DNA of 64,000 bases from Nitrospira sp. (lineage in GTDB: Bacteria > Nitrospirota > Nitrospiria > Nitrospirales > Nitrospiraceae), in NCBI GenBank assembly GCA_030692565.1, contig JAUYAO010000059.1:1-64000 (forward strand), read 5' to 3'. Under the pieces are notes generated by a model that worked only from the letters and a program-made list of their open reading frames with translations, was not told the origin of the DNA and did not search any database. Positions within the stretch are counted from its first letter, which is position 1, and each line of letters opens with the position of its first letter. Below, piece by piece: positions 41,614-57,367 of the stretch. The translations under genes were made by a program, and so were the position numbers.

Positions 41614-42171
41614 TCAGGATTTCATGAGGGCCTGAATCAGTGCGCGCGCATCAGGGCCGCCCCAATCACGGGCGCCCGGCACCTTCTGCCTGACAATGCC
41701 GTTGCGATCGACCATGAACGTCATAGGCAAACTCCGCGCGCCGTACATCAACCCGACGCGATACTCGGCATCGTGCAGGATCGGGAAGGTGAATCCCATT
41801 TCCTGTTGAAAGGGCCGAGTCACCGCCGCGCCCTGTGGATCGGTAGAGACGGCGAGAATCTCGAAGTCTTTGCGCGAGTAGCTCCGATACAACTGCTCCA
41901 TCGCCGGCATTTCGATCCGACAGGGCCCGCACCAGGTCGCCCAGAAATTCACAAGCACCACTTTCCCGCGCAACTGGGCAAGCGACACGACGTTCCCATC
42001 CAGATCACGCAGCTGAAAATTGGGGGCTTCGTCGCCCACCTTGACGACCCCGCGATCGGCAACCGGCAGAGCGCGCGCGCCGGCCTCTCCATGAGTCCAG
42101 GCCGATACTCCGGTAGACGTATCCAGCAGACCGAAACTGCTCAACAGCAACGCGACCCATACCCGCTTCAT
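41614..42171 (-). CDS. resA: ResA/TlpA-like thioredoxin, periplasmic
   Basis: 185 residues. A cleavable signal peptide (ending near GVSAWT) precedes a thioredoxin fold with the active site WCGPC (NFWATWCGPCRIEM). The cis-Pro region is in SLPMTFMVD. It reduces haem-binding cysteines of apocytochromes or relays electrons from CcdA. Its ATG overlaps the stop of the other ResA-like gene (ATGA) and its stop lies 2 bases before ccdA. Two tandem paralogues suggest division of labour. Confidence 0.88.
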   Translation of the reverse strand: MKRVWVALLLSSFGLLDTSTGVSAWTHGEAGARALPVADRGVVKVGDEAPNFQLRDLDGNVVSLAQLRGKVVLVNFWATWCGPCRIEMPAMEQLYRSYSRKDFEILAVSTDPQGAAVTRPFQQEMGFTFPILHDAEYRVGLMYGARSLPMTFMVDRNGIVRQKVPGARDWGGPDARALIQALMKS

Positions 42172-42812
42172 AATGCCCCTTCAGAACTTCCAGGCTTCAT
42201 CGTACCACGGCCCTGGGGAAATGCGGGTTGGGGGGTCACATTCAGCAAGGTCGCAAGCGTCTTGAGGTTGTCGATCCTCGTCCAGTCTTTCGGACCAATG
42301 ATGATCTCTCGCACGATGCCCTGCTGATCGATGATGAAGGTCTCAGGTACTCCCAGCCGTTTATAGGGCTTGTCCGTGATGCCCCACGAATCGATAAGCA
42401 CCGGGAAAGTCAGGTTCAGGCTCTTGACGAACGGAGGAATATCCTTCGTGGTCGTCACCCGATCGATACTCACGGCGAGTACGACCAACCCGTCTTTCTC
42501 AAAGCTCTTATTGAGGACCTCCATCGAAGGCATTTCCTCCCGGCAGGGAGCGCACCACGTGGCCCAGAAATTCAAAAAGACCACTTTCCCGCGAAAGTCG
42601 GAGAGCCGATGGGGCTTGTCGTTTAGATCGATCAGAGAGAAATCCGGCGCCGCCTTCCCAACCACCAGCGGCTCATACTTCGAACTCTGCAGCCAGACAA
42701 TGGCAAACGTCACGACGAGCACCACTGCGCCGGCGGCCAGGATAAACAACCGCGAACCGCCCTTCGGCCGTTCCTGATTGGTGGGTTGAGAAGAAGTTAC
42801 CTGATCAGCCAA
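42168..42812 (-). CDS. resA: ResA/TlpA-like thioredoxin, membrane anchored
   Basis: 214 residues. An uncleaved-looking N-terminal helix (about 24-44) anchors a periplasmic thioredoxin domain with the active site WCAPC (NFWATWCAPCREEM). It is about as similar to its neighbour as expected for old paralogues, and the two differ in active-site dipeptide (AP against GP) and anchoring. It follows the CcsB gene but is separated from it by repeat copy B. Confidence 0.88.
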   Translation of the reverse strand: MADQVTSSQPTNQERPKGGSRLFILAAGAVVLVVTFAIVWLQSSKYEPLVVGKAAPDFSLIDLNDKPHRLSDFRGKVVFLNFWATWCAPCREEMPSMEVLNKSFEKDGLVVLAVSIDRVTTTKDIPPFVKSLNLTFPVLIDSWGITDKPYKRLGVPETFIIDQQGIVREIIIGPKDWTRIDNLKTLATLLNVTPQPAFPQGRGTMKPGSSEGAL

Positions 42813-49726: not shown

Positions 49727-49893
49727 ATCTACTAACCGACATGTCGTTTTGCATGACCCGCGATGCGTTGCGTTCACCATGCATCTGGTCGACAAAACAA
49801 GAAGTACTAAGTGGGGATGTGCGTGCCATCGTTAACGGGCATCCATAATTGATTCGGCTGGCCTCTGGCCGGATCTGGGACGGACATAGAAAA

Positions 49894-49917
49894 GGGGGCG
49901 ACAAAGGTCGCCCCCCC
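49894..49917 (-). terminator. terminator of the DUF3365 cytochrome gene
   Basis: 9-bp perfect stem (GGGGGCGAC / GTCGCCCCC) with a 4-base loop, about 27 bases after the stop. On the minus strand it is followed by TTTTC. Confidence 0.75.
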
Positions 49918-49943
49918 ATATACCGCGATTTTGAAAGATCTCT

Positions 49944-50687
49944 CTATTTGGCAGGAAGCTTGACGCTGACGGCACCTCCCAGGTCACCTTCGTTCGCGCC
50001 CTCTTTCTTGTAGCCGGAGACATCCGTCTCGCCTTTTGGCCCACCGTGGCAGCCCATGCAACCTTTGCCGTAAAACAACGGCAGCATCACTCGAACATCT
50101 CCGCCGACGGGCTCACTCATGATCTTGTCTCCCTGGCGTGGATAGCCGGGATCGCCGAGCTTTTTCATCATTCCGGCTTCAAAGGCATCTGCCTTATTCT
50201 TTGGGTTTCGGAGCAAGGTATCGGTCGTCGTCTGCTTCATGTAGATGCTCGTCTTGGCGCTGAACCCTGCAGCTGTCTGCGTTCCAAAGTGCGCCGGTGT
50301 AAACCCCTTGTATCCCACACCAGGCTTGTTGATGGTCGCTTGATTATCTGCGACCGTTTGTTTTGCGGCTGCGACGAGTTCCGGAAGAAGTTTCTGCGCC
50401 GATCCAGGAACACCGCTTGTTTTCAAATTACCTAAATCCACTCCAGTTCGCGCCTTGAATTTCTCCGCAAGCTGTTGGGCGAATACATCAGGTGTAAACC
50501 CCTTGTCCCCTTTGCTCGCATCATTGATCAACGGCTGATTGGCCGCAACGGCGCCACGCCCGGCGTCCAGCAGGATGGCCAGAAGGCGACCGGTTTCAAC
50601 CGCGTCATCCCCCGCAAAGACCGACAGTGGGCCAAGCACCGAAGCGAGAAACACTCCGAGTGCCGGAAGTAATCTTCGTCGGATCAT
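49944..50687 (-). CDS. c-type haem protein with duplicated DUF3365 (Tll0287-like) segment
   Basis: 247 residues. A signal peptide (ending near VFAGD) precedes a Tll0287/DUF3365 domain whose central motif occurs twice: about 46-85 (ANQPLIND ... KGFTPDVFAQQLAEKFKARTG) and 111-150 (DNQATINK ... KGFTPAHFGTQTAAGFSAKT). The C-terminal part has the family's PL-FYGKGCMGCHG with one CxxCH haem site (210-214). At DNA level the two copies share a 16-base identical stretch. It is a periplasmic monohaem protein, possibly a redox or signal-sensing protein. The gene is a single unit with its own terminator. Confidence 0.82.
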   Translation of the reverse strand: MIRRRLLPALGVFLASVLGPLSVFAGDDAVETGRLLAILLDAGRGAVAANQPLINDASKGDKGFTPDVFAQQLAEKFKARTGVDLGNLKTSGVPGSAQKLLPELVAAAKQTVADNQATINKPGVGYKGFTPAHFGTQTAAGFSAKTSIYMKQTTTDTLLRNPKNKADAFEAGMMKKLGDPGYPRQGDKIMSEPVGGDVRVMLPLFYGKGCMGCHGGPKGETDVSGYKKEGANEGDLGGAVSVKLPAK

Positions 50688-51041
50688 AGATCCTCCTCGA
50701 TTGACAGGTTGGACTGACTGAGTGCCAGGAAACAGATAGGTCCGAGAAAAGAAGATGAAGCGAATGAAAGAATGACGTTCACTATACGCCGACTACACTG
50801 GCAACACTAGAGCTATTCGGTCGTGGCAGTGAAGGATTGGCTCTATTATATTAATTGAGTTCTCACGACTTCAATGCATCCTCCAGCGAGGATCTCGGAA
50901 ATCAGATCACTTCTCGAAGATCATGTCGTGGGCAGCCCCATCAACAAGAGGAGAAGGCCCCCTTTTCATTCTATGACCATTGACTGAACTGAACACCTGG
51001 CGTATCGTTTCACACACTCAACTTACCTCTGAGGTCTCACC
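50688..51041. other. intergenic region, DUF3365 gene / iron transporter
   Basis: 354 bases with divergent flanking genes. It includes an A/T-rich centre (TCTATTATATTAATTGAG near 50840-50860), the likely location of one or both promoters. GAGG 7 bases before the ATG is the ribosome site of the downstream gene. I see no gene or structured RNA. Confidence 0.4.
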
Positions 51042-53901: not shown

Positions 53902-54774
53902 TTAGCGGCCCAACGCGAGCTTGATGGCGTTGCCGATCTCTGCCGGATTCTTCACGACCTTCACACCGGCTGACTCGAGCGTCTTCATCTTTTCAGCTGC
54001 CGTGCCCTTACCGCCGGAGACGATGGCACCGGCGTGGCCCATGCGGCGGCCTGGAGGAGCCGTGATGCCGGCGATAAAACTCACGACCGGCTTCTTCACA
54101 TTCTTCTTGATGAACTCAGCGGCTTTCTCTTCGGCATCGCCACCGATTTCACCGATCATCACGATCCCCTGGGTCTCGGGATCTTTCTCGAACAACGCTA
54201 ATACATCGACGAAGCCGGTTCCATTGACCGGATCGCCCCCGATCCCCACGCAGGTAGTTTCGCCAAGACCTAAGGTCGACAGCTGGTGCACCGCTTCATA
54301 GGTGAGGGTCCCGCTGCGCGAGACGACACCGACGATGCCCTTCTTATGGATAAATCCTGGCATGATCCCGATCTTCGCTTCATCGACCGTAATCACGCCC
54401 GGGCAATTCGGCCCGATCAATCGCACATCGCGGCCATGTAACGCTCGCTTCACCTTCACCATGTCGTTCACCGGAATACCTTCGGTGATACAGATGATCA
54501 GCTTCACCCCGGCATCGGCGGCTTCCAGAATCGCATCGGCGCAGAAAGGCGGCGGCACGAAAATCAGCGATGTGTCACAGCCCTCTTTCTTGACCGCATC
54601 CCGTACTGTATTGAACACGGGAATGCCTTCAACTTCCTGTCCCGCCTTCCCGGGAGTGACACCGGCAACGACCTTCGTGCCATACGCCTTGCATTGCGTC
54701 GCATGGAACGAGCCTTCCTTGCCCGTGATCCCCTGCACTACCACTCGCGTGTTTTTATTAACGAGAATTGACAT
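53902..54774 (-). CDS. sucD: succinyl-CoA synthetase alpha subunit
   Basis: 290 residues. The CoA-binding Rossmann opening is [20 protein letters not shown], the domain junction GPNCPGVI is present, and the phospho-histidine is in [18 protein letters not shown]. It interconverts succinate and succinyl-CoA; in a reductive TCA cycle it runs toward succinyl-CoA. It is normally adjacent to sucC, but here two lipoprotein genes and a sucC fragment intervene. Confidence 0.96.
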
Positions 54775-54803
54775 AGATTGATCCTTCTTTTCGTTTTACT
54801 GCT

Positions 54804-55406
54804 CTAGAAGATGCCTTTTGCGTGAGATTCATCAATCGTCAGACGGTGCAGATCATAATGCGCACTCTTTACAACGTCTTCGGGTTCATCCGAAAAGGGC
54901 ATAGCAAAAATCAGGAATATTTGAATCCAGAATCCCAACTCTTCCTTTTTGTCAATATTCGCAAGCACCTTCTGATCTCGACCCTTATACACGGTCTTGG
55001 TGATCAAGTCCTCTGACGCGTATCCGGGAATCATGCCAAAGGTAAATCCGGAGATAAAGCCAGAGAGAAACGCCAGCCCTTCACTCCCCTCCTCGACAAT
55101 AGAAATATCCGCCCTGATATCGGCCGACTCACCTTCCACAGACACTGAAGAAAACAATCCGGATTCTGTGTATGCTTTCGCAGCCTGTTCTCGAAACAGC
55201 TTTGCAGTAGCCTGTGTGGTTTCTGGGATCGTCCCATCAGAATCTGCACCTCTACTCACATTCAAGCTGATGGACTTCTTCCCCAATGATGGCGGTTGAG
55301 GAGGCCATTGAGCAGGTGGCTTCAGATCCCCCTCCCGAACCATAAGGCATCCCGACAGGCTCAAGATGAGAAAGACTATTGGGAGGATCTTTCGAAAACT
55401 TCTCAC
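54804..55406 (-). CDS. lipoprotein, paralogue B
   Basis: 200 residues starting at GTG, which overlaps the TGA of the sucC remnant (GTGA). Signal peptide with lipobox LSGC (Cys at 20), then a Pro-rich linker, a domain of about 120 residues, and a C-terminal hydrophobic segment FWIQIFLIFAMPF followed by YDLHRLTIDESHAKGIF. It is clearly paralogous to the next gene upstream, sharing SGLFSSV, IPGY, GFWIQ-FL-FAMPF and the KGIF end. The family is not recognised. It is located 29 bases before sucD in the operon, and is probably an outer-membrane or periplasmic-leaflet lipoprotein. Confidence 0.7.
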   Translation of the reverse strand: MRSFRKILPIVFLILSLSGCLMVREGDLKPPAQWPPQPPSLGKKSISLNVSRGADSDGTIPETTQATAKLFREQAAKAYTESGLFSSVSVEGESADIRADISIVEEGSEGLAFLSGFISGFTFGMIPGYASEDLITKTVYKGRDQKVLANIDKKEELGFWIQIFLIFAMPFSDEPEDVVKSAHYDLHRLTIDESHAKGIF

Positions 55407-55522
55407 GCTGCTTTTCCCGTCAGCTTCACAATCTTTCGCGCCGCTTCCTACAAGTCGTTGGGTATCTCCAATTTCAAGCCGGACTCCGCCAACAGTTTGC
55501 GGCCTTCTTCCTGGTTCGCCCC
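55403..55522 (-). pseudogene. sucC 3' remnant
   Basis: 120 bases align without gaps to the last 120 bases of sucC (56189-56308) with about 82% identity by hand. In frame, 33 or so of 38 residues match (for example EEGRKLLAESGLKLE, and KIVKLTGKAA then stop), but one Trp codon is TAG. Many of the differences are silent. It lies between the two lipoprotein genes and its stop overlaps the GTG of lipoprotein B. Confidence 0.85.
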
Positions 55523-55539
55523 TTCACAGACTCCCGTTT

Positions 55540-56112
55540 CTAAAAAAGGCCCTTCTGGTGCGCATCCTCAATGGTGGCTCGGTGCATGTCATACTGCGCA
55601 GCACTCAGCTTTGCCGCAGGACTGTCAGCAAACGGCATAGCAAACAGCAAGAAGAACTGAATCCAAAACCCCATCCCTTGGCGCTGCTCGATCGTCCCGA
55701 CCTCTTTCGACTGGCGATCTCTATAACTCGTTCGCGTCGCGAGATCTTGAGCAACATACCCGGGTATCATGGTAAACGTAATCGCGGATACGGCCGCGGA
55801 CCAGGAAAGACCCTCGTCTCCCGCCTCGATCACTGCAATGTCTGCATGCAAATCCGCGGGCGCACCGTTCATGATAACGGAAGAAAACACACCGGAATCA
55901 AGATAGGCCTTGACCGCCTGCTCACGGGAATCGCCGAGCCCTTCCTTCCCCTGAGGACCGATTCCGGCGACATGGAGCGCAATGGACTTTTTCGCCGGCT
56001 GAACCGACTGCGGTGCGTGCTGCCCCGACACCGATGACGCCCCATCCCGGACCATGAGGCATCCGGAAGCGCTCAACGACAGGAGGACAAATGTGATGAT
56101 GACCCAGGGCAT
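55540..56112 (-). CDS. lipoprotein, paralogue A
   Basis: 190 residues. Signal peptide with lipobox SASGC (Cys at 18) followed by LMVRDG. A linker and a domain of about 120 residues follow. It shares SGVFSSV, ADLHADIAVIE, MIPGY, GFWIQFFLLFAMPF and QKGLF with paralogue B, at about 40-45% identity overall. It is encoded 76 bases after sucC. No function is recognised. Its presence inside a central-carbon operon may simply reflect insertion rather than a shared role. Confidence 0.7.
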   Translation of the reverse strand: MPWVIITFVLLSLSASGCLMVRDGASSVSGQHAPQSVQPAKKSIALHVAGIGPQGKEGLGDSREQAVKAYLDSGVFSSVIMNGAPADLHADIAVIEAGDEGLSWSAAVSAITFTMIPGYVAQDLATRTSYRDRQSKEVGTIEQRQGMGFWIQFFLLFAMPFADSPAAKLSAAQYDMHRATIEDAHQKGLF

Positions 56113-56188: not shown

Positions 56189-57367
56189 CTACGCCGCTTT
56201 TCCGGTCAGCTTCACAATCTTCTGCGCCGCTTCCCACAAGTCGTTGGCCACTTCGAGTTTCAAGCCGGACTCAGCCAATAGCTTGCGACCTTCTTCCGCA
56301 TTCGTTCCCTGCAAGCGAACCACCAGCGGCACCGTGATCTTCACTTCCTTGGCCGCTTCGATCACGCCGTTGGCAATGCGCTCGCAGCGCACGATGCCGC
56401 CGAAAATGTTGATGAAGATGCCCTTGACGTTCGGATCCTTGAGGAGAATCCGGAATCCGGCTGCCACCGTCTCTTTGGTCGCGCCGCCGCCGACATCCAG
56501 AAAGTTCGCCGGCTCGCTGCCCGCCAGCTTGATCACATCCATCGTCGCCATGGCCAGACCCGCGCCGTTGACCATGCAACCGATGTTGCCGTCCAGCTTG
56601 ACGTAATTCAGATTGCTCGCACCGGCTTCGATTTCCAGCGGCTCTTCTTCGTTGAGATCGCGCATCTGCTGAACATCGGCATGCTTGAACAGCGCGTTGT
56701 CGTCGAAGGACACTTTGCCGTCGAGGGCGACGATCGTCTTTTCTTTGGTGATGATGAGCGGGTTGATCTCGACCATCGCCGCGTGCTTTTCCATAAACAT
56801 GCGATAGAGATTCCCCATCATCTGGATGAAGGGATTCATCACGGCCGGTTCGATCGTATTGAGACCGAGGGCAAACGCCACGTTGCGTCCGTTGTAGCCC
56901 TGGAATCCCACGGCGGGATCGATCAATTCCTTGATGATCTTTTCGGGTGTCTTTTCCGCGACCTCTTCGATTTCCATCCCGCCTTCGGTGCTGGCGATGA
57001 AGACGGGCCAACCGGAATCGCGATCCACCAGGATGCTCAAATACAATTCCTTGCTGATGTTCGCGCCTTCTTCGAGCAGGAGCCGATGGACCTGACGGCC
57101 TTTGGGACCGGTCTGGTGAGTCACCAGCGTCTTGCCGATCAGCTCCTTGGCCAGGCCTGCCACCGCCGCCTTATCCTTGGTGATCTTGACGCCGCCCGCC
57201 TTGCCGCGGCCGCCCGCATGGATCTGCGCCTTCACGACGAATACGGGCGTGTTCAGCTCGTTGGCCCAGGCCGTCGCCGCTTCCGGAGATGTCACTTCTT
57301 TTCCGCGTGGGACCGGCACCCCGAACTGCGCAAACAACTGCTTCGCCTGAAACTCATGCACATTCAT
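56189..57367 (-). CDS. sucC: succinyl-CoA synthetase beta subunit
   Basis: 392 residues. It opens with MNVHEFQAKQLFAQFGVPVPRG, the ATP-grasp domain has VVKAQIHAGGRGKAGGVK, and the C-terminal CoA-ligase domain contains GGIVRCERIANGV. It pairs with SucD to form the ADP/GDP-dependent succinyl-CoA synthetase. The gene lies 12 bases after frdA. Its 3' end is the source, or a homologue of the source, of the remnant at 55403-55522. Confidence 0.96.
   Translation of the reverse strand: MNVHEFQAKQLFAQFGVPVPRGKEVTSPEAATAWANELNTPVFVVKAQIHAGGRGKAGGVKITKDKAAVAGLAKELIGKTLVTHQTGPKGRQVHRLLLEEGANISKELYLSILVDRDSGWPVFIASTEGGMEIEEVAEKTPEKIIKELIDPAVGFQGYNGRNVAFALGLNTIEPAVMNPFIQMMGNLYRMFMEKHAAMVEINPLIITKEKTIVALDGKVSFDDNALFKHADVQQMRDLNEEEPLEIEAGASNLNYVKLDGNIGCMVNGAGLAMATMDVIKLAGSEPANFLDVGGGATKETVAAGFRILLKDPNVKGIFINIFGGIVRCERIANGVIEAAKEVKITVPLVVRLQGTNAEEGRKLLAESGLKLEVANDLWEAAQKIVKLTGKAA

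Follow-up and report, generated by a model that had tools for sequence, protein, structure and literature searches.

A degenerate sucC end between two lipoprotein genes of a Nitrospira genome as the probable scar of a recent import by recombination

The sucC-sucD interval and its degenerate sucC copy

The window (the whole 64,000-nucleotide stretch of Nitrospira sp. DNA that was analysed) carries on its minus strand, in this order, sucC, a lipoprotein gene (lipA), a degenerate piece of sucC (the remnant), a second lipoprotein gene (lipB), and sucD. The resident sucC (56189-57367), for the beta subunit of succinyl-CoA ligase, contains the Pfam domains ATP-grasp_2 and Ligase_CoA and shares 98.4% DNA identity with its counterpart in the sister genome G068; sucD (53902-54774), for the alpha subunit, contains CoA_binding and Ligase_CoA, is 97.9% identical to that of G068, and appears to be resident from about base 16, its first 15 bases (54760-54774) being a probable donor tract. 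The resident lipA (55540-56112) occupies the same place between the two ligase genes in seven further genomes of the genus, with 81-98% protein identity. The putatively imported lipB (54804-55406) has a GC content of 48%, as compared to 57-58% in its neighbours, and a GC3 of 51% as compared to 65-78%. Pfam gave no family for either lipoprotein, and a structure prediction for lipB from a three-sequence input was of poor quality (mean pLDDT 43). Two further parts of the interval are spacers: at 55520-55539 (AAACGGGAGTCTGTGAAGGG), the stretch of resident lipA-sucD spacer that reaches to the left joint, ends in the microhomology AGGG, and is identical in G068; and a donor-type spacer before sucD (54775-54803, AGCAGTAAAACGAAAAGAAGGATCAATCT), which is unlike the GGGACGAGACT spacer of every other lipA genome.

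The remnant (55403-55522) corresponds to the last 120 bases of sucC (56189-56308) in degenerate form, with 98 of 120 positions identical (82%) and a single stop change (Trp377 to TAG), as a sequence-only reading of this DNA had described it. The two copies form a 114-nt direct repeat with 84% identity (55405-55518 and 56191-56304). A whole-genome BLAST search found the remnant as the sole second copy of the sucC tail (E = 6.5e-30), a value that excludes a chance match. Its final bases carry the start region of lipB, whose GTG (55406-55404) does overlap the TGA stop of the remnant, as had been noted. Elsewhere in the window there is an 88-nt direct repeat (80% identical, 41896-41983 and 42519-42606, 623 bases apart), which probably reflects tandem paralogous genes.

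Comparison of the remnant to the resident tail revealed 5, 4, and 13 differences at codon positions 1, 2, and 3, with dS of ~0.59, dN of ~0.10, and dN/dS of about 0.17-0.23 (0.20 when the remnant is compared with G070), whereas the resident tail shows no amino acid changes relative to G070 (dN/dS 0). The earlier description of many of the differences as silent holds, but six of the 39 codons (354, 356, 372, 373, 377, and 381) carry amino acid or stop changes where 117-118 of 118 functional tails have one and the same residue. Likewise, the claim that the copy diverged like a functional gene is right for the dS, which would come from the donor, but not for the raised dN, which points to later decay. 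The pattern fits silent differences that were already present in a functional donor gene, and decay free of constraint after that. We count ~7 amino-acid-level changes in the remnant, somewhat above the ~3-4 that we estimate to be expected since the split from G068 (sister dS 0.07-0.08), so part of the decay may be older than the import.

Empty sites, joints, and origin of the segment

We examined 79 genomes of the genus and 175 of the family, the latter with 130 sucC-sucD intervals. Most of the 79 genomes have sucD directly beside sucC or a short spacer away from it; lipA lies between the two in eight, including the window's genome, which alone among the eight has a second lipoprotein gene and a sucC remnant. 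The sister G068 has the order sucC-lipA-sucD with an intact spacer (an empty site), and the site is likewise empty in the six further relatives with lipA; in all seven the lipA-sucD spacer reads GAG[TC]CTGTGAAGGGACGAGACT-ATG, and the foreign segment is thus missing from the recipient lineage. Around this interval, the window shares 97% identity with G068 across 5.6 kb upstream and 95% across the nearest 2.9 kb downstream. Between the resident sucC tail and that of G068, 119 of 120 positions agree, whereas the remnant differs from the resident tail at 22, so the remnant cannot have been copied after the two strains split; and since it is nevertheless absent from the sister and the other relatives, it must have come from outside. 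The comparison of this interval in relatives, which the sequence-only reading had proposed, therefore bears out two of its suggestions, namely that the remnant descends from an imported allele and that recombination brought in a junction of sucC′ with lipB; its other suggestion, an old resident sucC duplicate, does not agree with a genome holding no other copy and with a remnant found in 0 of 7 other lipA relatives. Separately, a segment of ~1.27 kb in the window (49728-50993), including a 247-aa ORF at 49944-50687 with a c-type haem motif (CMGCH), is absent from G068, where its flanks are nearly contiguous.

At the left joint, the spacer reads on as ACGAGACT-ATG(sucD) in G068 and as GCGAACCAGG, which is sucC sequence, in the window. 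The joint itself reads GTGAAGGG and, past the junction, GCGAACC; the recipient (AAGGGACGA) and sucC (CAGGGAACGA) have AGGGA in common, and the resident spacer is broken at a microhomology of 3-5 bases (AGGG/A), with little or no homology beyond these few bases. The right end of the segment lies within the conserved sucD. The window's sucD differs from that of G068 at positions 10, 12, and 15, then at 48, 81, and from 132 onward: 3 of the 18 differences cluster in 15 of 870 bases, and the donor-like ones are confined to bases 10-15. The visible donor tract is at most ~15-20 bases long, so the homology used there may have been short, and both ends could be short joins.

The sucC tail nearest to the remnant (102/120) is that of G070, a close relative lacking the lipoprotein gene. 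Two sucC trees group them at modest UFBoot values of 83 and 75 (from 120 bases; the second tree left out eight out-of-register rows that had absurd branch lengths in the first), suggesting weakly that the remnant belongs with G070 and not with the resident sucC. The lipoproteins are far more diverged than the remnant, as claimed earlier, sharing 46% identity (the earlier estimate was about 40-45%). In the lipoprotein tree, lipB branches off outside the group formed by the sucC-sucD lipoproteins of genera g1, g15, and g17 (support for the others 99/97), and the g11 lipoprotein (G091) is far off on a very long branch. We found no close relative of lipB in other genomes of the family (best identity about 51-52%), and no donor with the order sucC-lipB-sucD in the 79 genus genomes, the 175 family genomes, genome_contigs, or viral_contigs. 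Since the remnant groups with G070 and lipB branches outside its group's sucC-sucD lipoproteins, lipA and lipB are, as judged from these trees, xenologues. The sucC trees also place the sucC genes of two g14 genomes, G114 (L171) and G123 (L184), next to or within the g1 lipA clade; these share 97% protein identity with the window's sucC, which suggests that sucC has been exchanged between g14 and g1.

Half-gene scars and variable cargo across the family

A lipoprotein of the window's kind is present in 20 of the 130 family intervals, in genera g1, g11, g15, and g17; the 20 genomes are related, and their number is not a number of independent events. All 20 have a sucD that starts with ATGTC[A/C], as compared to none of the 110 lipoprotein-free intervals, where sucD starts with [A/G]TGAG[C/T] or GTGGCG. 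Given this complete linkage, and given that g1 and g17 each contain both lipoprotein-bearing and lipoprotein-free states, the lipoprotein gene and the head of sucD appear to move together, as would be expected of exchange through flanking homology.

Half-gene scars recur in the family: besides the event in the window there are at least three others, which brings the number of independent events to four or more. In G150, for example, GGGAAGGC marks the fusion of a resident sucD head (19 codons) with a donor sucC tip (GCGGCGTAA), after which come the lipoprotein gene and a second sucD of the ATGTCA type, a mirror image of the scar in the window; G149 and G135 contain decayed forms of this arrangement. 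G116 has a sucD head ahead of a YafQ-type toxin and its likely antitoxin, and G164 and G165 have partial sucC tails within the interval. The G116 interval (L190, 1562 bp) holds two cargos, a 177-aa ORF and then the YafQ-type toxin with its likely antitoxin, on either side of the sucD-head remnant. We left out of the scar count a second sucC tail and partial sucD in G135 (L188, contig C26), because they lie at a contig end and may come from a strain mixture; the second tail may be that or a real second copy.

The cargo between sucC and sucD varies: the lipoprotein gene, an Mrr_N-like gene (below the Pfam cut-off), the YafQ toxin-antitoxin pair, unknown ORFs, or none. In the cargo-bearing intervals that we read, some of them Pfam-scanned, and in the window's own interval, no ORF was recognised as an integrase or transposase. 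Many of the lipoprotein-free genomes (L045, L046, L062, and others) have a long hairpin element in a sucC-sucD spacer of about 125-200 nt (for the L045 spacer, -73.8 kcal/mol, z = -6.3); its core, GGTGCTCG..GNATGCGCGCAGT, occurs in 2-7 copies per genome in six genomes (reversed-pattern control, 0), and Rfam gave no match for the hairpin.

Proposed mechanism, alternatives, and relation to known systems

We propose, with a probability of roughly 80%, that recombination recently brought a relative's sucC-lipoprotein-sucD segment into the genome and that the 120-base remnant is the scar of this event. The ancestral state would have been sucC-lipA-sucD, as still kept in G068, and the incoming fragment, probably linear DNA that entered by natural transformation or another uptake route, would have come from a cell of a related member of the Nitrospiraceae in which the order was sucC-lipB-sucD. 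On one side, homologous recombination would have taken place in the 5′ end of sucD, and on the other the donor sucC would have been joined to the resident lipA-sucD spacer at the microhomology AGGG/A, without real homology. The outcome would be that lipB was added behind lipA, and that the last 120 bases of the donor sucC were left behind and then decayed (Trp to stop, and five further amino acid changes); lipB may still be expressed, with the last bases of the remnant as its leader. This course of events would account for the joint, the 120-base scar, the position of lipB, and the donor-like sucD head. We infer that the form of the event was homology-facilitated illegitimate recombination (HFIR), with the anchor placed in sucD because the right end lies exactly at the sucD head, the linkage of lipoprotein and sucD head is perfect, and the G150 scar has the same polarity.

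A different reading is that the segment was imported without one-sided homology, through short microhomologies at both ends or by way of an intermediate merodiploid or tandem array that was later trimmed. The very short donor tract seen in sucD (3 clustered differences in 15 bases) favours that reading, but the precise position of the right end at the sucD head, the perfect linkage across genera, and the shared polarity of G150 make it unlikely. We regard as slightly less probable still an ancient tandem duplication of a unit made of the sucC 3′ end and a lipoprotein gene, with one unit later lost in all relatives. The order sucC-lip-sucC′-lip does resemble a tandem unit, and a neutral copy could drift to 82% identity given time. 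However, the seven other genomes with lipA, the 98%-identical sister among them, all have the same short intact spacer, so repeated precise losses would be needed; lipB stands outside the clade of lipA and the g15 and g17 lipoproteins, so the duplication would have to predate those genera; and the remnant sits with G070 in the trees, not with the resident sucC.

Much less credence goes to a mobile element that targets and restores the 3′ end of sucC, with the remnant as the displaced end. Some phages target and restore the 3′ end of a gene, for example at icd, and a diverged 3′ gene end beside inserted DNA is a classic sign of such integration, which is what is seen at 55403-55522. But no gene for an integrase or another recombinase was seen between the two genes in the examined intervals, the tail of the resident sucC has not been replaced but is still that of the sister (119/120), and the scars include sucD heads as well as sucC tails; we therefore rejected such an element. 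A recent local duplication within the strain would explain why both copies share locus and orientation, but it is refuted by a sucC tail that is 1 base from the sister's and 22 from the remnant, and by lipoproteins merely 46% identical, and it retains next to no probability.

The import that we propose has counterparts in known systems. HFIR was described in Acinetobacter, Streptococcus pneumoniae, and Pseudomonas stutzeri (PMC3240628): one end of the incoming DNA is joined by homology and the other illegitimately, so that foreign DNA is gained without an integrase, as proposed for the window. Those cases are known from laboratory selection, whereas for Nitrospiraceae the evidence is a scar in a natural genome. 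An HFIR-like mechanism has also been proposed for the stacked arrays of type VI immunity genes in Vibrio cholerae (PMC5361080), where, similarly, successive imports are anchored in a conserved flank, the older allele is shifted, and pieces of genes are left; but at sucC-sucD the anchor is sucD, a gene of core metabolism, the cargo consists of small genes, the lipoprotein gene or others, and what remains as scars are core-gene ends instead of orphan immunity genes. Integrase-free hotspots, which diversify by recombination at flanking core genes (PMC5635113), share with our locus variable cargo between core genes, a lack of mobile-element genes, and, probably, exchange via the flanks; the sucC-sucD spot differs in splitting the operon of a two-subunit enzyme across several genera, and in having half-gene scars that record one-sided exchanges. 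“Hotspot” is for sucC-sucD a descriptive word, not a measured excess over other core-gene pairs.

The scar in the window is a new instance of a known mechanism and ordinary in kind. We consider it of moderate interest because scars are repeated at the same locus across genera; their recurrence at one core operon, along with the perfect linkage of lipoprotein and sucD head, provides a clean data set on recombination-driven gene gain. We would give even odds to a broader reading, in which the junction between sucC and sucD serves the Nitrospiraceae as a standing gene-capture site that is free of integrases. Small cargo (the lipoprotein family, toxin-antitoxin, and other small genes) would spread between genera by exchange through both halves of this core operon for a TCA-cycle enzyme, and one-sided events would stack cargo and leave datable half-gene scars. 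The window offers a natural, recent, and well-bounded case in which a second, diverged version of a gene was acquired without a mobile element. It also cautions that neighbouring “paralogues” can be xenologues that arrived separately; and with scars across the family, the process becomes countable in organisms that are hard to grow.
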